Assembly: GCA_003161575.1 (NCBI GenBank)
Contig: PMOE01000022.1
Location: forward strand, 1 to 64,000
Origin: Acidimicrobiaceae bacterium
GTDB taxonomy: Bacteria > Actinomycetota > Acidimicrobiia > Acidimicrobiales > RAAP-2
DNA: 64,000 bases
Direction of reading: 5' to 3'
The notes under the pieces were generated by a model. That model ran no database searches. It was not told where the DNA came from and was given only the letters and a program-made list of their open reading frames with translations. The translations under genes and the position numbers were made by a program. Numbering within the stretch: position 1 is the first letter of the stretch; every line of letters begins with the position of its first letter. Positions 19,107-60,892 of the stretch are shown here, piece by piece.

Positions 19107-22100
19107 CTATTGCAGGTTTGCCGAGCCGATGACCGTGTTGGGCCGGTCGACGACGGAACCGGTGTTGCCAGTCACAGTGAGCGATCCCAAGACACCATTG
19201 CCGGTGACAGTGGCGCCCCCGCTGTTCTGCTTGACCGAGACGGCGCCCACCCAGGCGCTGTTCGAGAAGGTGACCCCTCCGCTGTTGGATTGGATGGACA
19301 AGCTTCCAGCTGCGATCGCCTTCTGGACGGAGACGCCAGCGGTGTTAGACGACAGCGCAAGTGACCCCACGATCGCACTTCCCAGACAGGATGAGGTTCC
19401 GTCCCCGAAGACCACCGGCTTGTTCGCCAGGGTCGCCGTTAGGCCACCGGCGAGGGCAGTGCTGCAGATTCGAAGAACCACCCCGCCGTTGGAGCTGATC
19501 GAACCGATGATGATGGCTCCTTGCGCTTCAAGGGAACCGCCGGGCTGGACACTCACCGGGCCCACTTGGACACAGCCAGGTGGAATCATGACGGACTCAC
19601 CGGCCGTGACCACGACCGAACCGATGTGATCACAGACTTCGACGGTAGTGAAGGTCACGGTGAGGGTGCCGGCCACGAACGTAAACTTGTAGTTGCTCGC
19701 CGCCAAGCTGCCTGTTGAGCACGTGATCGGGTAGGACCCGCCCGGACTCGATGCGGTGGCGGTGGTCGCGCAGACCGGTTGCCCAGTCACTCCGGACGTA
19801 GCCAAGGTCTGACCATTCACGTAGCCCGAGATCGTCGCTGTAAGCGTCGGGTTGGCTGCCCCGAACGCCCTCGTCTGGCTATTGGCGGTTACCGTGAGGG
19901 CTGCTGGGGTGACCGTCACCATGCCGGAGACGTAGTTCAACGTGTAATTGGAGTCAGATGCTCCGCTACAGGTCGACACGTACGAGCCGACGTTGCTGGT
20001 AGCGGACGCCACCGTCGAGCAGGTGAGGGTATTTCCGAGGGCCGAGGAGGAGTCTCCGTTTTCGAATCCGCTGAAACTCGCGGCAATGGCCGGCGCCGAA
20101 CCGCCGTAGGTTATCGTGGCTGAGGAGGCGGTGATTGTGAGCGGCGCAGGGCTCACTTGGATCGTACCGGGGACGTAGACGATCGAGTAGTTGGGGTCCA
20201 CTGCACCCGAGCAAGTGGTGGCGACGGCGCCCACCCCGCTGGCCAAGGTGGCTGAAGTCATACAGGTGGGAGCGGTCGTAAGCGACGACGCATGGTCACC
20301 GTTCACGAATCCCGCATACGACGCAGTCACGGACGGAACTGAATGTCCATAGGTCGTCGAGGCCGAAGAGGCGGTAATCACCAACGTCGCCGAGCCGATC
20401 GCGGTAACTCCCGAGACGTAGGTCGCCGTGTAGTTCGGATCGGTTGCCCCGGTGCACGTGTCGGGATAGGTGCCGACCGGGCTGGCCGAGGTGGCGGTTG
20501 TCGAGCACGTGGCCTCGGTCGTCAACGAACCGGCCGTGTCGCTGTTCACAAATCCCGAATACGACGCGGTGACGGCTGGAGCTGAGCCGCCATAGGTCAT
20601 CGAGGCGGACGACGCCGATACGACGAGGGGAGCCGGGCCGACGACGGTAGATCCCGCTTGGTAGGTCACGGTGTAGTTGGGATCTGCCGCGCCGGCGCAC
20701 GTGGCGGGATAGGTGCCGACAGCGATGGCCGACGTGGCGGTGGTCGAGCACGTGGCCTCGGTCGTCAACGAACCGGCCGTGTCGCTGTTCACAAAGCCCG
20801 AATACGACGCGGTGACGGCTGGAGCTGAGCCGCCATAGGTCATCGAGGCCGACGACGCCGCCACGACGAGGGGAGCCGGGCCGACCTGGAGATCGCCAGC
20901 GACGTAGCCGATCGAATAGTTGGAATCGATCGCACCCGAGCACAGAGTCGGGTACGTCCCTGTTGGACTCGTCGAGACAGCCGACGTACTGCAAGTGGGG
21001 TCAGTTGCCAATGAGGCCGGCGTTTCATCATTCACCAATCCCGAATACGACGCCGTAACAATCGGTAGTGCACCCCCGTAGGCCATGGAAGGGGAGGACG
21101 CTGTAATGGTAAGGGCCGTCGGGCCGACGATCTCTGAGCCCGCGATGTAGGTGATGGAATAATTCGCGTCCGATGCTCCGCCACATGAAGAGGAGTACGT
21201 CCCGATGGGAGACACGGACGTTACGACCGTGGAGCAGGTCGGCTGAGTTGTGAGTGAGGTCGCTGAATCTCCAGTGACGAACCCAGAGTACGACGCAGTC
21301 ACAGTGGGTGAGGCGCCACCGTAGGTGATCGATGACGAAGACGCCGTAACCGTCAATGGCGCCGGCAGCACGGTCACGGCTCCATCCGAGTAGGTGATGG
21401 TGTAGTTCGCCGCAGTAGCCCCGGCGCACGATGTCGGGTAGTTCCCGACTGGGCTTGAAGAGTTTGCCGAAGTGGAACAGACGGGCGCCGTGCTGAGCGA
21501 GGCTGCCGTGTCTCCGTTGACGAAACCTGAGTAGGACGCCACGATCGGTGGCACGGTGTCCGCGTACGTGATTGAAGGCGACGACGCGCTGATCGTCAGG
21601 CTCGCCGAGTCGACCTGAAGCGATCCCTGCACATCCGTGATGGTGTAGTTCGAATCGACCGCTCCAGTGCAGCTGGTGGGGTACGTCCCCACCGAGCTCG
21701 ATGAGGTTGCGGAGGTGTCACACGTTGAAGGCGTGGTGAGGGAGGTGGGGGAGTCACCGTTGACAAATCCAGCATACGAGGCGCTAAGGGCTGGCACTGC
21801 ACCGCCATAGGTCATGAACGTCGAGGAGGCAGTGGCAGTCAACGGTGCGGGACTGACAGACACGGCACCGTTCACGTAAGCGATTGAATAGTTGCTGTCA
21901 ACCGCGCCGGAGCAGTTGCTGGCGTAACTTCCGACCGGACTCGTACTGGAGGCCGATGTGCTGCACGTTGGTTGCGTTGTGAGCGACGCGGCATTGTCAC
22001 CGTTCACGAACCCCGAATAGGTTGGGACGATCTCCGGTCCAGCGCTGCCGTATGTCATCGAGGCCGAGTTCGCGCTGACGACAAGAACGGCGGAGCCGAC

Positions 22101-25100
22101 GACCACGGCTCCATTCGTGTAGCTGATGGAGTAATTCGAATCGGCTGCCCCGCTGCAGCTGGTCGGGTAGGTCCCAACTGGGCTCGAAGCGCTCGCCGCG
22201 GTGTCGCACGTAGGTTGAGTTGTAAGCGACGAAGCAGTGTCGCCATTTACGAAGCCCGAGTAGGTGGGAGAAACTTCGCTGGGTGCGCTTCCGTAGGTGG
22301 CCGCTTGAGATGTAGCGGCAATGGTCAACGGTGCGGGGTCAACCTGCAACGAACCTGGGACGTAGTCGAAGGAATAGTTCGGATCCACCACCCCACTGCA
22401 ATTGGTGGGGTAACTCCCAATCGGGCTCGAAGTACTCGCCGCGGTGCCGCACGTAGGCTGGGTTGTGAGCGAGGCGGCGGTGTCGCCGTTTACGAACCCA
22501 GAAATCGTCGCCGTGATGGCTGGCTGGCTCCCGCCGTAGGTCGCGGAGGCCGACGAAGCGGTGATCGTCAACTGTGCAGTAACGACTTGGGCCGTGCCGT
22601 CGGCGTAGGTGAACGAGTAGTTCGGATCGGCCGCCCCGCTGCAGCTAGTCGGGTAGGTCCCAACTGGGCTCGAAGCGTTCGCCGCGGTGCCGCACGTCGG
22701 TTGGGTGGTGAGCGAAGCGGCGGTGTCGCCGTTGACAAGGCCAGAGTAGGAGGGGGAGATGATGCCTGGGCCGGCCCCATAAGGAACTGAGGGGGATGAC
22801 GCAGTCACGACCAGGTTGGCCGGGTCAACCGTGACCGTGCCTGGGAGGTAGGTGATCGAGTAGTTGCTGCTCTCGGCGCCGGCGCACCCGGTGGCGAAAC
22901 TCCCCACGTCACTGGAGCTACTGGCTGCGGTGCCGCAGTCCAACGCATCACCCAATGCAGAAACAGCATCGCCGTTCACCAAACCCGAGACGACGGGTGT
23001 GATGGGGGGAACCACACCGCCATAGGCCATCGAATCCGATGATCCGGTGATAGTCAGTGGTGCAGCTGTTACGCCAACTGAGCCGTCCACATAGGTGATG
23101 GCATAGTTGTTATCAGTGGCTCCGACGCAGCTGCTCATGTAGGTGCCTACGGGGCTCGAGTCCATCGCCGTCGTCGCACAGGCCAAGGGACCGAGAACCC
23201 CGATGTCCTCACCATTTTGCAATCCACTCACGGTCGGGGTGGTGGTTGGTACCCCACCGCCGTAAGTAAACGATCCAGAAGAGGCGGTGATGGTAAGTGG
23301 GGAAGGGGTCACCGTGATCGTGCCGCTTACATAAGTGATTGCGTAGTTGGGATCAACCGCACCAGTGCAGCTGCTGGAGTAGGTGCCGACTGGACTCGAT
23401 GACGTGGCTGAAGTGACGCACACCAGTGCGGATCCGAGAACCCCCGCGTTTTCCCCATTCTGAAGCCCAGAGACGATAGGGCTGATCGCCGAGGGCGACG
23501 TCCCGTACATTTCCATCCCCGAAGAAGCGCTGACGGCGATGGGAGCGGGATCGACCGTGTCAGTGCCGCCCTGGTAGCTGATCGAGTAATTGGGGTCGCC
23601 AGCACCTGAACACGATGTCGCATATGAGCCGACGCTGCTCGAGGAAGTGGCAGTGGTGGAGCAGGTGGGCTCGGTGGTGAGCGAAGTGACGCTGTCGCCG
23701 TTCACAAAGCCCGAGTACGAAGCCGTTACCATCGGAACATCATTTCCGTATGTGGTTGAAGCAGATGAGGCCGTAACAACGAGGGGAGCCCCACCAATCG
23801 CCACAACTCCGTTCGCATAACTGATCGAGTAGTTCGGATCGATTGCACCTACGCAGCTGCTCGGATAGCTCCCAACCGCGCTCGACGAAGTGGCAGGAGT
23901 GGAACAGGTTGGCTGAGTTGTGAGCGAAGCAGCCGTGTCACCGTCCACGAACCCAACATACGTCGCGGCGATGTTTGGCGGTGCACTGCCGTAGGTCCCG
24001 GTTCCCGAGGAGGCAGTGACGGTCAGCGGCGCCGGGCCAACCGTGGTGCTTCCGTTTTGGTAGGTGATCGAATAGTTGGAGTCCACCGCGCCCGAGCAGC
24101 TGGCGCTGTAGCTGCCAACGGCGCTATTGGCCGATGCGGTCGTGGAGCAGGTGGGTTTCGTGGTCAGAGTGGACGCAGTGTCGCCATTCACGAAGCCTGC
24201 ATATGAAGCCGAGACGGTCGTTGGCGACGTCCCATAGGTGGTCGATTGGGAAGAGGCCGTGACGACAAGTGGTGCCGGACTGACCGTCAGGGGAGCCGGC
24301 ACAGAGGTACTCGCCGCGTAGCCTGTGTCACCGCTGTAGGTGGAACTGAGAGCGTACGAGCCGGGAGTGAGCGAGGGAACCGAGCAGTGCGCCTGATATG
24401 AGCTGCCCACGAGGCTCAACGGCACTGAGGTGCAATTTGAAATTGCATTGGCTCCGTTCCGGAAATTGACCGAGCCGCCACCGTCGCTCGGGCTCACCGT
24501 GGCGGTGACAGTGACCGACTGACCATAGGTGATGGTGGAGGCTGAAAGGCCAACCACGGTCGATGTCGGGGTGACAGCCGGTGGCCCGATTGCAAGGCTT
24601 GCGTTGGCAGACGATCCCGAGAACACCGCAGTCGGCGCGGAGGGGAGATTGACCTCAACCGGGGTGGGCGAGTTCGTTGTTGTCCCGTTACCGAGCTGAC
24701 CGTTGCCGTTGTAGCCCCAGGCGTAGAGATTGCCATTGGAGCCGAGGGCCAGACTGTGGAATTCACCGGCGGCGATTGCGGTGGCACTAACCCCGGCAGG
24801 GAGCGACACCTTAACGGGGGCCTTTTTGTTGGTCGTGGTCCCGTTACCGAGCTGACCGTCTTCGTTATCTCCCGTAGCATAGAGGTTTCCGTCGGAGCCG
24901 AGAATCAATGTATGTGCGGCACCTTCGGCGACGAGAAGGGGTTGAACCCCCGCTGGTAGCGACACTTTGACCGGTGTCGACGAGTCGACCGCCGTGCCGT
25001 TGCCGATCTGTCCAAACGCGTTGGCACCCCACGCGTATGCGTTGCCATCTGAACCGATCACGATACCGGTACGCATCCCAGCAGAGATCGCTAATGCGGT

Positions 25101-25820
25101 AACACCCGCCGGAAGCGACACGGGATTCGGGGTCTTCTTGTTAGCGACCCCTCCGTCACCGAGGGCACCGTTAGTTCCCTCGCCAAACGCGTAAACTTGG
25201 CCATTCGATCCCAGAGCGAGGCTGAAGTAGGTCCCAGCTGAGATCGCGGTTGCCGACACCCCCGCGGGTAATGACGCCAGGACTGGTATCGAAGAGGTGG
25301 TGGTTGTGCCATTGCCGAGCTGACCGAAGCCGTTGTAGCCCCAGGCATAGATGTTTCCGTCAGAACCAATGGCAAGGCTGTGATTCATTCCGGCCGAGAT
25401 TGCCGTGGCCGTAATCCCTGTGGGGAGGAGCACATGCACCGGAGTCGAGGAGTTCGTTGTCGTTCCGTTTCCCAACTGGCCGTCATTGTTGAGTCCCCAG
25501 GCATAGACGTTTCCGTCAGAACCGATGATCAAGCTGTGATCGCCGCCGGCGGCGGCATCAGTGGCAGTGACGCCGTTTGGGAGGGTGACCGACAGGGGTG
25601 ATGGGGAATCGGTAGTCGATCCGTTCCCTAACTGGCCGTCGGCATTTGCTCCCCACGCGTACAGAGCACTCGACGCAGCGCTCGCCGGAGAGGCGCCGAT
25701 GACACTGACCGCTACCGACGCCGTGAGGGCCAGCACGGATAAGCCGACACTCGCGATCCTGATAGAAACAGGGCGGGAACCCGTCGACTCTGGTGACCGC
25801 GTGAACGGACCGAAGGACAT
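19107..25820 (-). CDS. Giant secreted RCC1-repeat / MBG-repeat protein
   Basis: A 2237-residue exported protein. The signal peptide (IRIASVGLSVLALTASVAVSVIG..ASA) is followed by seven RCC1-type repeats of about 50 residues (YAWGYNGNGQLGNGTTTN / HSLALGSNGNL), a predicted seven-bladed propeller, encoded at about 24600-25670. Then comes one bacterial Ig-like domain (TVVGLSASTITYGQSVTVTATVSPSDGG). Next are nineteen MBG-type repeats of about 75-80 residues (about 19680-24290), each with ASSxSxTYG, YSGFVNGD, LTTxPTCST and DPNYSITY. The C-terminus is a beta-helix-like region of short repeats (GSLALSSNTAGVSVQKAIAAGSL). No LPxTG, S-layer or lipid anchor is visible. GGGGGGGTGG precedes the ATG. Repeats 15 and 16 are almost identical. 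Probably a long surface adhesin or stalk. Confidence 0.85.
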   Translation of the reverse strand: MSFGPFTRSPESTGSRPVSIRIASVGLSVLALTASVAVSVIGASPASAASSALYAWGANADGQLGNGSTTDSPSPLSVTLPNGVTATDAAAGGDHSLIIGSDGNVYAWGLNNDGQLGNGTTTNSSTPVHVLLPTGITATAISAGMNHSLAIGSDGNIYAWGYNGFGQLGNGTTTTSSIPVLASLPAGVSATAISAGTYFSLALGSNGQVYAFGEGTNGALGDGGVANKKTPNPVSLPAGVTALAISAGMRTGIVIGSDGNAYAWGANAFGQIGNGTAVDSSTPVKVSLPAGVQPLLVAEGAAHTLILGSDGNLYATGDNEDGQLGNGTTTNKKAPVKVSLPAGVSATAIAAGEFHSLALGSNGNLYAWGYNGNGQLGNGTTTNSPTPVEVNLPSAPTAVFSGSSANASLAIGPPAVTPTSTVVGLSASTITYGQSVTVTATVSPSDGGGSVNFRNGANAISNCTSVPLSLVGSSYQAHCSVPSLTPGSYALSSTYSGDTGYAASTSVPAPLTVSPAPLVVTASSQSTTYGTSPTTVSASYAGFVNGDTASTLTTKPTCSTTASANSAVGSYSASCSGAVDSNYSITYQNGSTTVGPAPLTVTASSGTGTYGSAPPNIAATYVGFVDGDTAASLTTQPTCSTPATSSSAVGSYPSSCVGAIDPNYSISYANGVVAIGGAPLVVTASSASTTYGNDVPMVTASYSGFVNGDSVTSLTTEPTCSTTATSSSSVGSYATSCSGAGDPNYSISYQGGTDTVDPAPIAVSASSGMEMYGTSPSAISPIVSGLQNGENAGVLGSALVCVTSATSSSPVGTYSSSCTGAVDPNYAITYVSGTITVTPSPLTITASSGSFTYGGGVPTTTPTVSGLQNGEDIGVLGPLACATTAMDSSPVGTYMSSCVGATDNNYAITYVDGSVGVTAAPLTITGSSDSMAYGGVVPPITPVVSGLVNGDAVSALGDALDCGTAASSSSDVGSFATGCAGAESSNYSITYLPGTVTVDPANLVVTASSPSVPYGAGPGIISPSYSGLVNGDTAASLTTQPTCGTAANASSPVGTYPTSCSGAADPNYSFTYADGTAQVVTAQLTITASSASATYGGSQPAITATISGFVNGDTAASLTTQPTCGTAASTSSPIGSYPTNCSGVVDPNYSFDYVPGSLQVDPAPLTIAATSQAATYGSAPSEVSPTYSGFVNGDTASSLTTQPTCDTAASASSPVGTYPTSCSGAADSNYSISYTNGAVVVGSAVLVVSANSASMTYGSAGPEIVPTYSGFVNGDNAASLTTQPTCSTSASSTSPVGSYASNCSGAVDSNYSIAYVNGAVSVSPAPLTATASSTFMTYGGAVPALSASYAGFVNGDSPTSLTTPSTCDTSATSSSSVGTYPTSCTGAVDSNYTITDVQGSLQVDSASLTISASSPSITYADTVPPIVASYSGFVNGDTAASLSTAPVCSTSANSSSPVGNYPTSCAGATAANYTITYSDGAVTVLPAPLTVTASSSSITYGGASPTVTASYSGFVTGDSATSLTTQPTCSTVVTSVSPIGTYSSSCGGASDANYSITYIAGSEIVGPTALTITASSPSMAYGGALPIVTASYSGLVNDETPASLATDPTCSTSAVSTSPTGTYPTLCSGAIDSNYSIGYVAGDLQVGPAPLVVAASSASMTYGGSAPAVTASYSGFVNSDTAGSLTTEATCSTTATSAIAVGTYPATCAGAADPNYTVTYQAGSTVVGPAPLVVSASSASMTYGGSAPAVTASYSGFVNSDTAGSLTTEATCSTTATSASPVGTYPDTCTGATDPNYTATYVSGVTAIGSATLVITASSASTTYGHSVPSVTASYAGFVNGDHASSLTTAPTCMTSATLASGVGAVATTCSGAVDPNYSIVYVPGTIQVSPAPLTITASSATITYGGSAPAIAASFSGFENGDSSSALGNTLTCSTVASATSNVGSYVSTCSGASDSNYTLNYVSGMVTVTPAALTVTANSQTRAFGAANPTLTATISGYVNGQTLATSGVTGQPVCATTATASSPGGSYPITCSTGSLAASNYKFTFVAGTLTVTFTTVEVCDHIGSVVVTAGESVMIPPGCVQVGPVSVQPGGSLEAQGAIIIGSISSNGGVVLRICSTALAGGLTATLANKPVVFGDGTSSCLGSAIVGSLALSSNTAGVSVQKAIAAGSLSIQSNSGGVTFSNSAWVGAVSVKQNSGGATVTGNGVLGSLTVTGNTGSVVDRPNTVIGSANLQ

Positions 25821-53307: not shown

Positions 53308-53652
53308 ATGGAACGGCCGGGAGACCATCTGTTGACGATCCCGCAATCCGATACCAGACTCTCCCTCGTGAAAACCTACCGGACTGCCGAGGGTGCTCTT
53401 TTTGAGGTTCTTGACGGTAGGGCGGCGATCGTGAATCCCGAAGGAACCGAACTCGTCACGCTCAACCAAGTCGGGTCACTCATTTGGAGTGCCCTTGAAC
53501 AACGACCGGGCAGCGGTGTCGAGTACCTTGTCGGCGAAGTTGTCGCCGCGACCGATGCTCCGATCAAGTCTGAAGTGGAGAGTGATGCACGTAAGTTCCT
53601 CAGTCAGCTTGTCGACCGTGGCCTGGTGATCGCCGAGCCTGACGGTCGATAG
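53308..53652 (+). CDS. Stand-alone PqqD-like RiPP recognition element protein
   Basis: A 114-residue protein with the PqqD/RRE winged-helix pattern: three strands (FEVLDGRAAIVNPEGTELVTLNQVGSLIWSAL) and a helix pair ending DARKFLSQLVDRGLVIAEP. PqqD-like proteins bind the leader of a ribosomal precursor peptide and hand it to modifying enzymes; in lasso systems the B1 protein reads a YxxP motif, which is present in the small peptides at 56785-57201. It heads the run of modification genes. PqqD-like proteins also occur in some glycan loci, an alternative reading here because glycan genes precede it. Start not certain; GTG/ATG alternatives lie a few codons on. Confidence 0.82.
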   Translation: MERPGDHLLTIPQSDTRLSLVKTYRTAEGALFEVLDGRAAIVNPEGTELVTLNQVGSLIWSALEQRPGSGVEYLVGEVVAATDAPIKSEVESDARKFLSQLVDRGLVIAEPDGR

Positions 53653-53666
53653 TCGAGGCGTTGTTC

Positions 53667-54518
53667 ATGGCAGTTGAGCCCCTCCAACTCGAAGGATCGG
53701 ACCGCTGGCCTCGGCGCCCCCGGACGTTCACCCATGACCTTGCTGGTCACCCACTTTTGTCACTTGACAGAGTCAGCGACTGGGTGGGGGCGATTTCGCC
53801 AAAGCGGATCCAACAGCACCAGGGGGATCTGCCGGTGCTCCACCCCTCGGGAACTGTGCGAACAATCAAAGAACCCACTTCGACGGTGATCGGCGAGTTG
53901 AATGAGCGCAATGCGTGGGTACTGATCCAAGGGCTTAGCGCCGTACGCGAAGTCGACGAGCTGGCCCAATCGGTCGAGCGAGCTTGGTTAGAGGCCTCGG
54001 CATCTCTCGAAGGCGGGTTCGTCCGGCGTGCCGCCCAACTCCTCGTGGCATCTCCGAAAGCAGCAGTCCCGGCCCACTTTGACCGCCAACACATTCTTCT
54101 GCACCAAGTGACTGGGACCAAGGAGGTGTTCATCGGTGGTTCCACATCGGGCTCGGGACTCGACCCAGAGATCGAGTCCGAAGTTGCGGTGTCGATGGCG
54201 CACCGGAGCCACAACCTCTACGAGATGCCCCAGACAGCGACGAGGTACTTGCTCCAGCCTGGGACCGGGCTCTATATCCCGCCACGCAACCCTCACTGGG
54301 TGCTCGGCGGCACCGATACCTCTGTCACCCTTTCGTGTGGATGGGACACCCGATGGAGTGACTCGGAGTACTTGACGTACTACTGGAACGAGCGCCTTCG
54401 CCGCGTCAAAGTGCCAGCCGGCCCTGTCGTTCCGGGTAAATGGAGCAACCGATGCAAGGCGATTGCTGTTGATCGATTTGGGCGAATCGTCCGGTTTTCC
54501 AAGCGCGAGAGCAATTGA
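53667..54518 (+). CDS. JmjC/cupin-like Fe(II) oxygenase family protein 1
   Basis: A 283-residue protein resembling the cupin-like JmjC hydroxylases. A metal-site H-x-D is visible at H137/D139 (PAHFDRQHILLHQVTGTKEVFIG) with a Lys 13 residues later, and the distal His is H210 in GTGLYIPPRNPHWVLGG. Such enzymes use Fe(II) and 2-oxoglutarate to hydroxylate protein or peptide side chains. It sits 15 bp after the PqqD gene and overlaps the nucleotidyltransferase start by four bases (TTGA), so all three share an operon. The ATG at 53667 is preferred to the TTG two codons before. Peptide hydroxylation is inference from context. Confidence 0.72.
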   Translation: MAVEPLQLEGSDRWPRRPRTFTHDLAGHPLLSLDRVSDWVGAISPKRIQQHQGDLPVLHPSGTVRTIKEPTSTVIGELNERNAWVLIQGLSAVREVDELAQSVERAWLEASASLEGGFVRRAAQLLVASPKAAVPAHFDRQHILLHQVTGTKEVFIGGSTSGSGLDPEIESEVAVSMAHRSHNLYEMPQTATRYLLQPGTGLYIPPRNPHWVLGGTDTSVTLSCGWDTRWSDSEYLTYYWNERLRRVKVPAGPVVPGKWSNRCKAIAVDRFGRIVRFSKRESN

Positions 54519-55687
54519 ACCGACAAGTCCGTACAAGGCTCCCTGACCAACCGTCGCGGGCTGGGCGACCACTTCGACGCTATTTGGGTCGTTGGGGCGC
54601 GATCCACCTGCTGGGTCCCGCCATGGCGGGGCGCGCTCGTGGAGTCGACTCTCAAACATGGGATCAGATCGCCGATTTGGCAATCTCCAACAACCTCGGT
54701 CCAGCGCTGTGGCTTGCAATCCGCGGCCAGTCCCCGAAATCACAAGAGACGACCGACCGCCTGCGATCTGCGTACCACGTAAACCTCGGCGTGATGATTC
54801 GCGTGCGCCATCAGCTCCATGAGGCTTTGGCAGTGTTTCATGAGTACGGCGTCTCGCCTGTTCCGATCAAAGGCGCGCTGTATCTCCTCGACGGGACCTT
54901 CGCTGATCTCGGCGAGCGGATGCTGAGTGATATCGACGTCTTGGTGGAACCCGATGCCATCGAGGTGGCGGTGACTGCTCTCCGGTCGGTCGGCTACACG
55001 CGAGTCGACAAGCCGTTCGACCGAGGGCACGAGGTCGTCATGGTCCATCGCCGTCGCCCGGTACCCATTGAACTCCATTTCGAATTGGGCGATGACTCGC
55101 TCACAACGGTCCTCGGGATCTCAGAAGTGCTGTCTGGGGCATCGCCGACTTCGGGTGATGCCGCAGACGAAGGATGGCGGACACCATCGTCGACGCACAT
55201 CGCCCTCCACCATGTCCTGCACGCCCAGGTACAAGATCGGAGTTGGCGGGCGTTTGCCGTTCCACTCCGTCAACTCCAGACATTTCACGCAGTGGTTAGG
55301 CGCCACGGCAATGACATCGATTGGCTTGAGGTTGGAGCGAGGCTCCGGTACCACGGCCACGGTGACGCGTATGAGAGCTATCTTCGCCTTGCTCGGTTCT
55401 TCTTCGACACCCCGCTGCCACCCAGTGAATCGTTGTCCGTCGGTGGCGCCCTGGACGCGGGGCGCCTTCACGATTCCATCGCACTGGCCAACCTGGCCAT
55501 TGGCAATCGGCCGGGCAATGTGTACCGAAACCTTTCGTGGGCTCTTGATGGCCAATACCTGCGCGACCGTTACTCGTCGTCGATCGTCGGCGATCTCCCG
55601 CTCGCTGTGCTGCGCGCCTGGCATGTGGCCGTACTTTGCCGCCGTGGTGTTCCGGTATTCAGCGACGTGACAACTGATCATTGGTGA
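54515..55687 (+). CDS. NTP_transf_5-type nucleotidyltransferase family protein
   Basis: A 390-residue protein of the uncharacterised nucleotidyltransferase family PF14907. The key stretch is VPIKGALYLLDGTFADLGERMLSDIDVLVEPDAIEVAV, with the invariant KG and the D-x-D metal pair, then PIELHFELGDD with the second acidic site. Relatives are found in several lasso-peptide clusters beside HprK-like kinases, where they act on phosphorylated peptides, and in exopolysaccharide loci. The start is TTG overlapping the previous stop. Its 3' end overlaps the convergent kinase gene by 29 bp. Confidence 0.82.
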   Translation: MNRQVRTRLPDQPSRAGRPLRRYLGRWGAIHLLGPAMAGRARGVDSQTWDQIADLAISNNLGPALWLAIRGQSPKSQETTDRLRSAYHVNLGVMIRVRHQLHEALAVFHEYGVSPVPIKGALYLLDGTFADLGERMLSDIDVLVEPDAIEVAVTALRSVGYTRVDKPFDRGHEVVMVHRRRPVPIELHFELGDDSLTTVLGISEVLSGASPTSGDAADEGWRTPSSTHIALHHVLHAQVQDRSWRAFAVPLRQLQTFHAVVRRHGNDIDWLEVGARLRYHGHGDAYESYLRLARFFFDTPLPPSESLSVGGALDAGRLHDSIALANLAIGNRPGNVYRNLSWALDGQYLRDRYSSSIVGDLPLAVLRAWHVAVLCRRGVPVFSDVTTDHW

Positions 55688-56669
55688 ACTGAGCCTCAAC
55701 GATCGTCGCGATGACGGCCAAGGCGTCGACCGTCGAGGTCATGCGGGTGTCAGAGTCGGTACCAAGATTCAGGCGGAAAGATGGAAGACGAGACAAGCCT
55801 GCCGCACGCGGAAACCACCGACGAAGTCGGGCCCCGCCCATCGCGCCGAACATGGCTGGCCACAGGGATTGCACCGCTTGACTGCCGCTCATCGGTGTTG
55901 CTGCCCCCGATGCCTGATCACCGTGTCCGACGACAGCGACTGCGCCGATAGCCCACCACCTCGGGTCCAGGGGGACCGAGCCGGGCCGGCCGATAACCCG
56001 CCGACCCCGGGGATCGTTGGCAAGCGGCGGAGCGTGCGCCGCCACACCTGTCAGCTCACCGGGTGCTGACAGGGGTAGCAGGATGCCTCGCACTTCGAAC
56101 CCACCGGTGTTGGGCCGTACCGTCACCATGTCGTCGGCCAACACCAACCAACCGGCGTTGAGAGCGGCTACCGCACTCGTCGATTTGCCGGTTCCGGTGG
56201 GACCTGTGATCAGGATGGCCGTGTTGCCGCCAGGGGTAGATGCTGGCGGGATCACGGCGGCGGCGTGCAGAAGCCACTCATCATGGCTGGCCAGTATCCA
56301 GGCCAGCGCGTGCGGAATCATCAACTGTCCTACGTGTGATGGCGAGTACTCCGGATCATTGTCAATGATCACAGTCGTTGAACTCGGGAAGCTGGCTCGA
56401 CCAGAAGGCGAATCCACGATTGGTTGGCCGGCGTTGGTCCACAGCGAGACGCCGCTGACCTGGTCGACGACATCGGGTGGGGAATCGGGAAGCGTGACAG
56501 TCGCACCGCAGGTAATCGTTCCGCAGGCCGGCTCTCGGCCAGCCGGTCCGAGGCACGCCACGAAGCGTCCGACCACTTGTGCCCATGGACCCTCGCCTGG
56601 GGCGTCGATGGTCAGGTTGATTGATCCAGCGGACACCCGATGGGCCCGGCGACCTTCGCTGGTTTCCAT
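55659..56669 (-). CDS. HprK-like serine kinase family protein
   Basis: A 336-residue protein of the HPr-kinase C-terminal fold. The P-loop is GPTGTGKST at residues 156-164, preceded by the EWLLHAAAVI strand with H135 and followed by LVLADDMVTV with D179/D180, the phosphorylation-site acid of the family. A roughly 120-residue N-terminal domain lacks the HPr-sensor sequence, so this is not true HprK. Homologous kinases in lasso-peptide clusters phosphorylate the peptide's C-terminal serine; others sit in exopolysaccharide systems. It is divergent from the peptide ORFs with a 116-bp spacer, so one control region may serve both. Confidence 0.85.
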   Translation of the reverse strand: METSEGRRAHRVSAGSINLTIDAPGEGPWAQVVGRFVACLGPAGREPACGTITCGATVTLPDSPPDVVDQVSGVSLWTNAGQPIVDSPSGRASFPSSTTVIIDNDPEYSPSHVGQLMIPHALAWILASHDEWLLHAAAVIPPASTPGGNTAILITGPTGTGKSTSAVAALNAGWLVLADDMVTVRPNTGGFEVRGILLPLSAPGELTGVAAHAPPLANDPRGRRVIGRPGSVPLDPRWWAIGAVAVVGHGDQASGAATPMSGSQAVQSLWPAMFGAMGGARLRRWFPRAAGLSRLPSFRLNLGTDSDTRMTSTVDALAVIATIVEAQFTNDQLSRR

Positions 56670-56784
56670 GCCTCGACAGAGTAATGTGGCGAAAGCGGGT
56701 CAGTCAGGCTCACTGTGCGCACCGCCCAGATCCTGTGAGCGACCTGAAACGCCGGAATCGTGGAATAAGGCGGGAGGCCACACT

Positions 56785-56931
56785 ATGAACTACGAGAAAC
56801 CTGAGATCGAGCACTCTGAGCGGATCGACCATCCGTTGGTTGTGGGAACCGTCGTGCTCGGCATGACCGTTGCCGAGGACTCCACCAATGAGTCACTCAC
56901 TAGGGGGCCGGATGATCTACGAGACGCCTGA
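56785..56931 (+). CDS. Candidate RiPP precursor peptide A1
   Basis: A 48-residue peptide, MNYEKPEIEHSERIDHPLVV followed by a variable tail ending GPDDLRDA. The Y-E-K-P-E-I stretch fits the Y-x-x-P-x-[IL] recognition motif known from lasso-type leaders. GGGAGG sits eight bases before the ATG. The last 20 codons overlap the start of A2 in another frame, so the two are coupled. The AEDS(T) motif near residue 33 aligns with TEDP in A2 and A3. No Cys. It is too short for standard gene finders; conservation across neighbouring copies is the main evidence. Confidence 0.8.
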   Translation: MNYEKPEIEHSERIDHPLVVGTVVLGMTVAEDSTNESLTRGPDDLRDA

Positions 56932-57034
56932 GATCGAGCACTCCGAGCGCATTGACGTACCTTTGGTACTTGGGGTGACCAGCCTGCCACCCGGTTTGAC
57001 CGTGACAGAGGACCCCACCGAGAAATCGAACTAG
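56912..57034 (+). CDS. Candidate RiPP precursor peptide A2
   Basis: A 40-residue peptide, MIYETPEIEHSERIDVPLVL, then GVTSLPPGL and TVTEDPTEKSN. The first 15 residues differ from A1 at only two positions, while the second half is different apart from the TEDP motif. AGGGGG lies five bases before the ATG. It begins inside the end of A1. The C-terminus ends Ser-Asn, so a terminal-region Ser is available to the kinase. No Cys. Confidence 0.8.
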   Translation: MIYETPEIEHSERIDVPLVLGVTSLPPGLTVTEDPTEKSN

Positions 57035-57078
57035 TTTTCAACCCGAGGTAGGCCGGGCAATTCACTGATGGAGGCACT

Positions 57079-57201
57079 GTGAACTACGAGAAGCCTGAGA
57101 TCGAGCACTCCGAGCGGATCGACCATCCGTTGGTGGTGGGCACTCAATTGCCCTGCGGTCCGACAACTGCGTCGTTTACCGAGGATCCTCCAGAAGAGTA
57201 A
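57079..57201 (+). CDS. Candidate RiPP precursor peptide A3
   Basis: A 40-residue peptide from a GTG start, VNYEKPEIEHSERIDHPLVV, then GTQLPCGPTTAS and FTEDPPEE. Residues 2-21 are identical to A1. The DNA of the shared part differs from A1 by only a few bases, while the 3' halves are unrelated, the mark of a constant leader with a diversified core. One Cys is present. GGAGG sits four bases before the GTG. Confidence 0.8.
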   Translation: MNYEKPEIEHSERIDHPLVVGTQLPCGPTTASFTEDPPEE

Positions 57202-57283
57202 CCCAGAGGCCGGCTGCTCGACAGTGCCAGACCAAGAACGAGTGTCGTCGTGACGAACAGGATCGCTCCCACTGGGTTTCGGC

Positions 57284-57302
57284 TTCACGGTACGTGAAGT
57301 GT
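57284..57302. terminator. Hairpin between the peptide genes
   Basis: CTTCAC-GGTAC-GTGAAG forms a 6-bp stem with a 5-base loop between A3 and A4. It could be an attenuator or partial terminator that separates the peptide genes from the oxygenase gene. No T-run follows. Confidence 0.3.
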
Positions 57303-57347
57303 GTAATTTGAGATGGGCGGGGCATTGAGCGCGGAGGGCGTCGGCTC

Positions 57348-57434
57348 ATGGCCGGTGACAAGATCGAGATCGAGCGTTCTGCCAGGATCGGCGGCCCGGC
57401 AACGGTGGGCAGCGGTCCGGAATCCGTGAGCTAG
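57348..57434 (+). CDS. Candidate RiPP precursor peptide A4 (divergent)
   Basis: A 28-residue peptide, MAGDKIEIERSARIGGPATV then GSGPESVS. It keeps the I-E-x-S-x-R-I core of the other three leaders (EIERSARI against EIEHSERI) but lacks Tyr and Pro of the YxxP motif and the TEDP motif. It ends in Ser. GGAGGG is upstream with long spacing, and AGGAGAGG of the following gene overlaps its stop codon. It may be a decayed or functionally distinct member. Confidence 0.55.
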   Translation: MAGDKIEIERSARIGGPATVGSGPESVS

Positions 57435-57444
57435 GAGAGGTCTG

Positions 57445-58269
57445 GTGCCGCTCCGCCACTCAGAGCCGATGGTCGGAACGGAGTTCGAACTCTCGACATG
57501 TGGAGTGGTCCAAACCACCCACCGTCTGGCCGCCCTGCTCCCCTGGACCGATCACGACATACGTGAACTCGCGGCAAAAGTACCGGTCGGTTGGCTTGAT
57601 GCATACGACGCGGGTCCATCCTCAAGGGTGCACGGTGTCACGCCCCTACAAGCGATCGAGCGTTTGCAAGAGACGGCCGGAGTCGTGCGACTGCTCCATC
57701 TCGAGCATGTACCCGGTCTCCGATCAACGGTGGCAGCCGTGGTGACTGAAGCACAGGCATTCTTCACAAGGACACAGCCCGTAGTCAGTTCCAGCTCCGT
57801 TCTGTATGTTGGCTCGGGCCGATCGAGCGCTCCGGCTCACGTCGACCACCATCCGAACTTCTTCGCGCAGCTTCGAGGGACAAAGCGGTTCTTCGTCGCT
57901 CGACATGCCAGCGAGGACCTCCAGCAAGAGGAAATCGCCCGACACTTCGCTTCCCGGGTCGCCGGACCCAGGTGCATTCCTGATACAGACGTCACGGTGC
58001 ACGAACTGGGACCGGGAGACGCTCTCTACGTACCTCCGTACACATTCCACTGGGTCGAGAGCGATGCAACGACGGTGTCCGCTGCGGTTTCATGGAGCAC
58101 TGCGTCGTCCCTCGAGCAAGAGGCCGTCTACGAATTCAATGCCGGACTGCGTCGAATCGGAGTGCGCTCGGCGCCCCCCGGCATCCGTCCGCGACTCGAT
58201 CACGTGAAGGCAACGGTGTATCGCTCTCCCGCAGCACAACGTGTGATGAGGTTGCGCCGGCCGACTTAA
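57445..58269 (+). CDS. JmjC/cupin-like Fe(II) oxygenase family protein 2
   Basis: A 274-residue protein of the JmjC-type cupin group. H132 and D134 are in APAHVDHHPNFFAQLRGTKRFFV, with the 2-oxoglutarate-binding Lys candidate at K147; the distal His is H202 in GPGDALYVPPYTFHWVES. The metal site is thus complete. It differs strongly in sequence from the oxygenase at 53667, so the pair probably acts on different residues or peptides. The GTG start follows AGGAGAGG, 10 bp after peptide A4, placing it directly in the precursor transcription unit. Confidence 0.75.
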   Translation: MPLRHSEPMVGTEFELSTCGVVQTTHRLAALLPWTDHDIRELAAKVPVGWLDAYDAGPSSRVHGVTPLQAIERLQETAGVVRLLHLEHVPGLRSTVAAVVTEAQAFFTRTQPVVSSSSVLYVGSGRSSAPAHVDHHPNFFAQLRGTKRFFVARHASEDLQQEEIARHFASRVAGPRCIPDTDVTVHELGPGDALYVPPYTFHWVESDATTVSAAVSWSTASSLEQEAVYEFNAGLRRIGVRSAPPGIRPRLDHVKATVYRSPAAQRVMRLRRPT

Positions 58270-58657: not shown

Positions 58658-60892
58658 ATGATCACTCGCCGCAATGCACCCGGACGAACGCGCACCGTCT
58701 CCGGCCGGCTGGCGGGGGGCGCATTCGGGCTCCTCCTCGTGGCGGGGCCTCTGGCACTGCCCGCCGCCGCCGGCACGACGCGGGTCGTCTCCTACGCGGG
58801 CTCGGCCGCCGACTGGACCGTGTACCACCACGACTCCTTGGGCTCAGGGGTCGACACCTCGGGGACTTCGTTGTCCCCGGTCAGTGCGGCGTGGACCTCG
58901 TCAGCCCTTGACGGCCAGATTTACGGCGAGCCGCTTGAGGCCACCGGCCGGGTATACGTAGCCACCGAGGCCGATACGGTGTACGCCCTGGCGGCAAATA
59001 CCGGGACCGTGCTGTGGAGTACCACTGTCGGAACCCCGGTTCCGAGCGGCGCCCTGCCCTGTGGGAACATCAATCCCACGGTCGGGATCACCTCCACGCC
59101 GGTGCTCGACCCCTCCCTCGGCGAGATCTTCGTGGTCGATGACGAGTTCGACAACGGTGTGCCGGCCCACGTCATGGTCGCTCTCAACATGTACAACGGA
59201 GCGGTCGTGCTGCGCCAGGACGTGGACCCTCCGGGGGCCACTACCAAAGCCCTCCTCCAGCGGACCGCGTTGACCTTGGACCAGGGCAACGTCGTCTTCG
59301 GCTACGGCGGGAACGATGGAGACTGCCAGCCCTACCACGGGTGGGTGGCCTCAGTGCCCGAGGTCGGCGGCCCCATGGCCACCTTCGAGGTGGACAGCGG
59401 CCCCGGCGAGAGCCAGGGCGCCGTGTGGATGGGCGGGGCGGCCCCGATCGTCGATGCTTCGGGCAACGTCTGGCTGGCGGCGGGCAACGGATCGGTCAGC
59501 TCGTCCGCCGGCCCCTACGATCACAGCGACTCGGTGCTCGAGCTCACCCCTTCTTTGGCTCTCAAGCAGTACTTCGCCCCCGCGGACTGGTACAACGACA
59601 ACGGCCACGACCGGGACCTCGGGTCGTCATCGCCCGCTCTTTTGCCCAACGGGACGATTGTTCAAGCCGGCAAGTCCCAGACCGCCTATCTGTTGAATCA
59701 GTCCCCTCTCGGCGGGATCGGGGGCCAGGAAAGCCAGATGTCGATCTGCGGGGGGGATGTCGACGGGGGCAATGCCGTCTCGGGCAACGTCGTCTACGAG
59801 CCGTGTGAGAGCGGCGTGGTGGCGGTGTCGGTATCGGCGAGTCCGCCGACGATGACCCAGCTCTGGCAGACCCCCACCGGATCGGGGGGACCCCCGATTG
59901 TGGCCGGAGGGCTCATCTGGACGATCAGCCAGGATGGCAAGCTTTTCGGCCTCAGCCCGGCGAGCGGGACCGTCGTGGTGCAGTTCTCCATCGGCTCTGT
60001 GGCCAATCACTTCCCAACGCCATCGGTTGGAGATGGTCTCCTTCTCGCCCCGGCTTCTGACCAGGTCGCGGCCTTCCAAGGACCGGCCGGTCTCCCCGGG
60101 CCGCCCGCACCGGCGCCGGCCGCGCCGCCGCGGTCGTCGTACTGGACCGTGGCCTCTGACGGGGGGATCTTCAGCTTCGGCAACGCCCGGTTCTTCGGCT
60201 CGACCGGCGCCATGCCCCTGAATCAACCAATCGTGGGCATGGCGCCTACCGCCGACGGAGGGGGCTACTGGTTGGTGGCCGCCGACGGGGGAATCTTCGC
60301 CTTCGGCGACGCCGGGTTCGTCGGCTCGACCGGCGCCATGCGCCTGAACCAACCCATTGTGGGTATGGCACCCACCCCCGACGGCGGGGGCTACTGGCTG
60401 GTGGCCGCCGACGGGGGGATCTTCGCCTTCGGTGACGCCACGTTCTTCGGCTCGACCGGCGCCATGCGCCTGAACCAACCCATCGTGGGCATGGCGCCTA
60501 CCGCCGACGGCGGCGGCTATTGGCTGGTGGCCGCCGACGGGGGGATCTTCGCCTTCGGTGACGCCACGTTCTCGGGTTCGATGGGTGGGGTCGCGCTCAC
60601 CCGACCGGTCGTCGGGATTGCCACCACTGCCGACGGCGGGGGCTACTGGCTGGTGGCCTCCGACGGTGGCATCTTCAGCTTCGGTGACGCCACGTTCTTG
60701 GGCTCGATGGGTGGTCGACCCCTCAACGAGCCCATTGTGGGCATGGCGACGACATCGGACGGCGCTGGGTATTGGCTGGTGGCGTCCGACGGGGGGATCT
60801 TCAGCTTCGGCGACGCCAAGTTCTCCGGTTCGGAGGGGGGAGTCCCGCTCAACAAGCCCATGGTTGGCGTGGCCGACGTGCCCAACAGCTAG
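58658..60892 (+). CDS. Secreted PQQ-type propeller protein with GGGYWLV repeats
   Basis: A 744-residue exported protein. A signal peptide ([17 protein letters not shown]) leads into a PQQ-like beta-propeller of about 430 residues ([51 protein letters not shown]). After a Pro/Ala linker come about six copies of a 42-residue unit, [40 protein letters not shown], nearly identical at DNA level with a period of 126 bp. The same unit ends the protein at 6715 and appears at 63835. Likely binds something at the cell surface or in the matrix. Ligand unknown; enzymatic quinone binding is not supported. Confidence 0.85.

Follow-up and report, generated by a model that had tools for sequence, protein, structure and literature searches.

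A candidate gene cluster for hydroxylated, phosphate-decorated peptides in Acidimicrobiia, with paired JmjC oxygenases, an HprK-like kinase and a nucleotidyltransferase

The stretch of DNA analysed here (the window) is 64,000 nucleotides long and is part of a 78 kb contig (C91) in the 3.5 Mb draft genome of an Acidimicrobiaceae bacterium (G000). Between positions 53308 and 58269 it carries genes for a recognition element (RRE) of the PqqD type, as known from ribosomally synthesised and post-translationally modified peptides (RiPPs), two JmjC/cupin oxygenases, a PF14907 nucleotidyltransferase, an HprK-like kinase and a set of small peptides, three clear and one degenerate. A sequence-only reading of the window had described these genes as a candidate RiPP system, and domain matches and a structural model of the kinase found all of them where it had put them. 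The genes of the RRE, oxygenase 1 (Ox1) and the nucleotidyltransferase form a tight run, followed by the convergent kinase gene, the small open reading frames (ORFs) of the peptides and oxygenase 2 (Ox2). Ox1 overlaps the nucleotidyltransferase gene by 4 nt, and the latter overlaps the kinase gene by 29 nt at their 3' ends.

53308..53652, plus strand: discrete RRE, PqqD family (PF05402, E 1.1e-12, over cut-off)
53661..54518, plus strand: Ox1, JmjC_2/cupin (PF08007 JmjC_2, 6e-7, over cut-off)
54515..55687, plus strand: nucleotidyltransferase NTP_transf_5 (PF14907, 2.2e-31)
55659..56669, minus strand: HprK-like kinase (TIGR04352 5e-7 and PF07475 7e-4, both under cut-off; fold match)
56785..56931, plus strand: putative precursor peptide 1, MNYEKPEIEHSERIDHPLVVGTVVLGMTVAEDSTNES... 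(leader profile, codon pattern)
56912..57034, plus strand: putative precursor peptide 2, MIYETPEIEHSERIDVPLVLGVTSLPPGLTVTEDPTEKSN (leader profile)
57079..57201, plus strand: putative precursor peptide 3, GTG start, MNYEKPEIEHSERIDHPLVVGTQLPCGPTTASFTEDPPEE (leader profile, codon pattern)
57348..57434, plus strand: putative degenerate fourth precursor, without YxxP, MAGDKIEIERSARIGGPATVGSGPESVS (alignment, 46% identity to peptide 1)
57445..58269, plus strand: Ox2, JmjC_2/cupin_8 (PF13621 9.5e-12, PF08007 6.6e-10)

Three of the small ORFs encode peptides of 40-48 amino acids that share a leader, M-[NI]-Y-E-[KT]-P-E-I-E-H-S-E-R-I-D-[HV]-P-L-V-[VL]-G, and have diverged tails; the fourth (57348-57434) has 28 amino acids. 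Purine-rich stretches resembling Shine-Dalgarno sites lie upstream of the first three. Over codons 2-21, peptides 1 and 3 differ by four synonymous and no non-synonymous changes, and after the leader the amino acid differs in 17 of 19 codons. A leader under such constraint, joined to a core that varies freely, speaks for translation of these ORFs. Together with the neighbouring modifying enzymes this arrangement is, as far as sequence can tell, the composition of RiPP precursors. The leader profile matches only peptides 1-3 over the 64 kb window. Chance ORFs were rejected as an explanation, given the codon pattern and the recurrence of the leader in genomes carrying the oxygenases.

This recurrence, which we regard as the decisive evidence, was assessed in 395 genomes of the same class. 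Searched genome-wide, the leader profile gave strong matches (E<=1e-6) only in G000, G087, G091, G120, G170 and G264, all of which carry the oxygenases, and the overlap between the two sets has a hypergeometric probability of 4e-11 when the relatedness of the genomes is ignored. The sequence-only reading had named enzyme sets without peptides, and peptides without enzymes, as the patterns that would count against it: the complete five-enzyme sets (G000, G120, G091) all carry peptides, and strong leader matches are confined to oxygenase-carrying genomes. Strong matches lie on contigs with cassette enzymes in all cases except G264:C419. G120 belongs to a family of 12 genomes, of which three (G120, G170 and G087) have both peptides and oxygenases and eight, congeners included, have neither; the borderline case is G103, with an oxygenase and only a weak precursor. 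Weak leader matches elsewhere (E 1e-3 to 1e-2) were put down to chance; one of them, in G132:C230 ('MSMRYERPSI...'), is ambiguous and lies in a genome without the oxygenase. A separate sample of 397 genomes of the phylum gave no leader match outside the window genome.

When the oxygenases alone were used as a profile, a homologue was found in 10 of the 395 class genomes. The cassette loci among these combine PqqD and/or HprK-like genes, often a nucleotidyltransferase, and peptide arrays that share the leader of the window, and no cassette lacks a JmjC enzyme. All five enzymes together with peptides occur in three families (f1, f54 and f56; genomes G000, G120 and G091), and partial sets in four more genomes, several limited by contig ends. 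The cassette of G120 (C36, L026) holds a nucleotidyltransferase (plus strand), two oxygenases, eight precursor genes (six with two units), an HprK-like kinase (plus) and a PqqD gene (minus). That of G091 (C33, L029) has a nucleotidyltransferase, two precursors of two and three units, Ox2, an HprK-like kinase (plus), Ox1 and PqqD. In G170 (C54, L031) we found Ox2, several precursors, Ox1, PqqD and an HprK-like gene, the rest being hidden by the contig edge, and in G087 (C38, L032) Ox2, one precursor, Ox1 and PqqD, with the kinase at a contig end beside two further precursors (L104). Two G264 contigs with an identical precursor at their ends (C421 and C215) together carry an Asn_synthase-like protein, an oxygenase, four precursors and a kinase, and a third (C321) carries a nucleotidyltransferase, an oxygenase and one precursor. 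G103 has PqqD and Ox1 on C16 and the kinase with the weak precursor on C2. The precursors of several relatives are thus tandem leader-core repeats, with up to three units per peptide.

Some relatives show additional genes at these loci. The Asn_synthase-domain protein of G264 (L028:2979-4172) lacks a GATase domain and lies beside the four precursors and the oxygenase; the precursors next to it have SGxxGD in common, and the locus is a possible cyclised variant. In G103 (L076:3246-4487) and G091 (L101:1-1180) a PP-loop-like protein of about 400 amino acids (FSGGVD...NCGRCxKCMxT; 44% identical between the two) adjoins the HprK-like kinase, in G103 also a precursor. It gave no Pfam or NCBIfam match and may be an additional enzyme in a sister pathway. 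G091:C33 carries a second PqqD and HprK-like pair at its opposite end (L101:1177-4321), set apart by a DDE_3 transposase and without a precursor that could be recognised. On a different contig of the same genome (C30, L072:2791-3637), away from the main cassette, a single oxygenase directly precedes a short leader-bearing ORF (YEPPCIESRARIDTPLIG...), which is a minimal satellite copy.

Across the relatives the leader takes the form YxxPx[IV]xxRxxVxxxL, and we counted 42 leader-core units in 7 genomes, after exclusion of two false units on the opposite strand of L026. Counting from the last leucine of the leader (L), a serine stands at L+4 to L+7 in 38 of the 39 relatives' units, 29 of them precisely at L+6; shuffling within units gives 17.6+-3.0. 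An aliphatic-aromatic motif (e.g. AVFRP, PAWRS or PIWRS) is found in 33 of the 39, against 5.1+-2.0. By analogy with LppK, which phosphorylates the core residue Ser3, we propose that the kinase acts on the conserved core serine; candidate oxygenase targets are the aromatic motif or the neighbouring Arg/Asn. In the window, peptide 2 has its serine at L+6 and the degenerate peptide 4 at L+4.

Recognition of the leader can be related to solved complexes. The cassette PqqD is the sole PF05402 gene found in each of G000, G120, G087 and G103, and the leaders therefore have one visible RRE partner there. In the window its true start is probably the GTG at 53368, because the relatives' proteins open with MTYRRADG..., matching that GTG. 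The six cassette PqqDs, combined in a profile, match TbiB1 (5v1u, 5e-10), LppB (9x8z, 1e-7) and PbaB1 (9x90, 2e-6). Popov et al. describe how LppB holds the leader: its Tyr is hydrogen-bonded by D70, its Pro is sandwiched by F74, and N33 keeps the kink in place (PMC13381572). With the register set by the spacing of V35 and C39 (the offset in the deposited chain is then 18), N33, D70 and F74 align to N53, D93 and F97 of the window RRE, and all three are invariant in the six cassette RREs; the leader Tyr, Pro and last Leu are likewise invariant in all 21 units aligned. The predicted contact is compatible with the solved complexes, and the role of leader-binding protein that the sequence-only reading gave to PqqD fits these alignments.

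Both oxygenases have intact metal sites, H139-x-D141...H212 in Ox1 and H132-x-D134...H202 in Ox2, so that the claim of JmjC enzymes with a full HxD...H site held for each. For Ox1, the P, HxD, K and distal H are invariant across 14 homologues. A predicted model of Ox2 (pLDDT 86.5) finds its best PDB folds among YxbC/1vrb, FIH, NO66 and YcfD-like hydroxylases. Carrying HxD...H in a JmjC_2/cupin fold, the two are predicted to act as Fe(II)/2-oxoglutarate oxygenases. In the tree the cassette enzymes split into two paralogous groups, an Ox1 side and an Ox2 side (support 84/89, moderate), and the pair is therefore probably old. The search for relatives of Ox2 alone gave a single divergent lone homologue beside GNAT/FemAB-like genes, and a contig scan with a tighter oxygenase alignment matched the G264 contigs only. 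Lone JmjC relatives in G036 (L004:8697-9557) and G192 (L030:1097-1957) are of the same family in a different context: they adjoin GNAT/FemAB-like acyltransferases, neither PqqD nor peptides were seen in the stretches read around them, and they group apart from the cassette oxygenases.

HPr kinase and PEP carboxykinase have a common nucleotide-binding core. The AlphaFold model of the window kinase (pLDDT 82, pTM 0.85) has its best fold match in PEP carboxykinases, i.e. the PEPCK/HPrK fold. H135, GxxGxGKST and DD are invariant in six HprK-like homologues, and a profile of the six cassette kinases matches HprK (1jb1, 4e-5) around the H...GxSGxGKS...ADD core. The nucleotidyltransferases of the cassettes share an invariant KG...R...DxDxLV motif; a sequence-profile search found no PDB relative for them.

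We consider it likely, on these observations, that the window locus is a RiPP biosynthetic cluster making hydroxylated, phosphate-decorated peptides. In the mechanism that we propose, the stand-alone RRE would bind the leader of about 20 residues through its Y-x-x-P-x-I motif and present the core to the two JmjC-type oxygenases, which would hydroxylate side chains. The kinase would phosphorylate a hydroxyl residue about 4-7 positions past the last Leu of the leader, and NTP_transf_5 would then add a sugar or nucleotide that caps or extends the phosphate, much as PsmN appears to do in pseudomycoidin. An unlinked protease would cut off the leader. The product is probably destined for the cell surface, a guess made because the cluster adjoins an O-antigen-ligase-like protein (Wzy_C), glycosyltransferases (GT4) and PMT_2, all from Pfam matches of flanking genes. 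Precedents for kinase and nucleotidyltransferase tailoring are LppK, PadeK and PsmN (PMC13381572, PMC9266682); PsmN is needed for hexoses on the phosphorylated Ser of pseudomycoidin (PMC9266682). Hydroxylation has precedents as well: CanE of canucin is a 2-oxoglutarate hydroxylase aided by the RRE CanB1 (PMC9266682), and BipG of biphenomycin a JmjC-domain ornithine hydroxylase (PMC12707348). Algae and fish are reported to have RRE-JmjC fusions, and JmjC relatives from bacteria to occur in RiPP-like settings (PMC12710340).

Several points weigh against this interpretation. The leader profile was made from peptides found beside the enzymes, and all compared genomes are draft assemblies. In G103 and G087 the enzyme set is split over more than one contig. 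No other cores are as divergent as those of the window, where peptides 1 and 3 have Thr instead of Ser at L+4 in the proposed phosphosite region; LppK, which phosphorylates its Ser3 several times, rejects Thr (PMC13381572). The window kinase is under the Pfam and NCBIfam cut-offs, and no leader protease or exporter gene was identified for the cluster.

Could the peptides be lasso peptides? A cluster of lasso origin would have its macrolactams tailored by the kinase, nucleotidyltransferase and oxygenases, with cyclase and protease encoded elsewhere. Lasso B1 proteins are indeed the nearest matches of the RRE, leaders with YxxPx[IV] resemble those of lasso peptides (PMC13381572), and in G264 the Asn_synthase-domain protein adjoins precursors. 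Yet no lasso B2 protease (Transglut_core3, PF13471) scores above cut-off in the seven cassette genomes, and a cyclase gene (PF00733) was not found in G120, G087 or G103 and is not linked to the cassettes of G000, G091 or G170, in line with the absences from the window that the sequence-only reading had reported. The divergent PF00733 gene of G264, the only one linked to a cassette, reaches 12 bits against a cut-off of 525 for the NCBIfam lasso cyclase model. A lasso peptide was rejected for the window cluster, which has neither B2 nor a linked cyclase, and we regard a lasso origin of the cassettes as unlikely. Linear products, as first suggested, suit the window genome, where no cyclase is linked, but with the linked gene of G264 linearity need not hold for every member. 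Phosphorylated lasso peptides of the paeninodin/pseudomycoidin type resemble the cassettes in their RRE (B1), HprK-like kinase, nucleotidyltransferase-type protein decorating phosphorylated Ser and aromatic-xxP leader (PMC9266682). The cassettes differ from them by the lack of B2 and, in the window and most relatives, of a lasso cyclase, by the added oxygenases, and by a proposed phosphosite that is internal instead of the C-terminal Ser. Canucin and biphenomycin also have precursors hydroxylated by 2-oxoglutarate oxygenases, but their primary modifications are a lasso and a radical SAM/MNIO cross-link, and the consulted portions of PMC9266682 and PMC12707348 describe no pair of HprK-like kinase and nucleotidyltransferase with either.

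The neighbouring Wzy_C, GT4 and PMT_2 proteins, and the lone JmjC relatives that sit beside GNAT/FemAB-like genes without peptides in G036 and G192, might instead suggest a locus for polysaccharide or cell-envelope modification, in which a carrier or glycan would be the target of PqqD, kinase, nucleotidyltransferase and oxygenases, and the small ORFs would be either regulatory or without significance. This is quite improbable given two leaders that differ only synonymously while their cores diverged, the multi-unit precursors and the co-occurrence of peptides and enzymes across families. Elsewhere in the window, we noticed a protein of 744 amino acids with a PQQ_2 propeller followed by repeats (58658-60892) and a very long ORF of 2237 amino acids on the minus strand (19107-25820).

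The closest known system is that of the linear polyphosphorylated peptides (LPP) of Bacillota, described in 2026, where an RRE, an HprK-like kinase and a nucleotidyltransferase modify a non-lasso peptide with a YxxP leader, the nucleotidyltransferase step being silent in the host used (PMC13381572). LPP loci share with the cassettes a discrete RRE, the kinase, an uncharacterised nucleotidyltransferase, the YxxPx leader, independence from a lasso cyclase, one or more precursors, a place in polysaccharide loci and a speculated cell-surface role (PMC13381572). The window cluster itself has this trio of discrete RRE, kinase and nucleotidyltransferase. However, LPP have a SipW-like leader peptidase and an MsbA-like exporter, no reported oxygenases, and are reported as restricted to Bacillota (PMC13381572), whereas the cassettes have two JmjC oxygenases, tandem leader-core repeats in several relatives and an Acidimicrobiia host. 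No SipW-like signal peptidase I is in the cluster, the TIGR02228 matches of all seven genomes being on other contigs, and the Pfam matches of flanking genes in the window include no MsbA-like exporter; near the relatives' cassettes, ABC genes are limited to an ABC fusion of the amino-acid type (G091) and an ABC_tran/cNMP protein (G087). The leaders YxxPxVLxHQxIxFETxxS of LPP and YxxPx[IV]xxRxxVxxxL of the cassettes have YxxPx[IV] in common and differ in the remainder. That the cluster is a true actinobacterial LPP member, its JmjC enzymes merely secondary tailoring, is the least probable of the alternatives despite the shared enzyme core and YxxP leader (PMC13381572), given the missing peptidase, exporter and motif remainder and the presence of one or more JmjC enzymes in every cassette.

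Among NCBIfam cassettes, HPr-rel-A and SynChlorMet (ScmC/ScmD) also pair a PqqD-like protein with an HprK-like kinase. HPr-rel-A (TIGR04352/TIGR04353) was rejected, the kinase scoring 29.1 against 200 bits and the PqqD 13.2 against 35 bits, as was SynChlorMet membership, with scores far under the equivalog cut-offs. The combination of RRE, JmjC, HprK-like kinase and nucleotidyltransferase was not found in the open literature (open-licence PMC papers).

The overall interpretation of the sequence-only reading is supported. Its remark that no described class has this combination stands for the paired JmjC oxygenases, the tandem precursors and the lineage, which are new beyond LPP; it does not for the association of RRE, HprK-like kinase, nucleotidyltransferase and YxxP leader without a lasso cyclase, which LPP already have (PMC13381572). 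Since the SipW-like peptidase, the MsbA-like exporter, the remainder of the LPP motif, B2 and (bar G264) a linked cyclase are all missing, the cluster can be seen as an Acidimicrobiia pathway that is LPP-like and hydroxylating, a new variant of the phosphorylated RiPP pathways that is possibly, with a fair chance, a class of its own. We give about even chances to a distinct Acidimicrobiia class in which paired JmjC oxygenases, HprK-like kinase, NTP_transf_5 and discrete RRE yield hydroxylated, phosphate-linked short peptides, a view that also covers the tandem precursors, with up to three units per peptide and eight precursor genes in one cluster.

So far, JmjC hydroxylases have been met chiefly in connection with ribosomal proteins, FIH and, from 2025 on, biphenomycin. 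If our interpretation is true, they would become core RiPP enzymes, and the modification of non-lasso RiPPs by HprK-like kinase and nucleotidyltransferase would extend beyond Bacillota. The precursors of several relatives, with their own recognition sequence before every core, would be natural core libraries for tests of RRE-guided hydroxylation and phosphorylation, with which the role of NTP_transf_5 would become directly testable.

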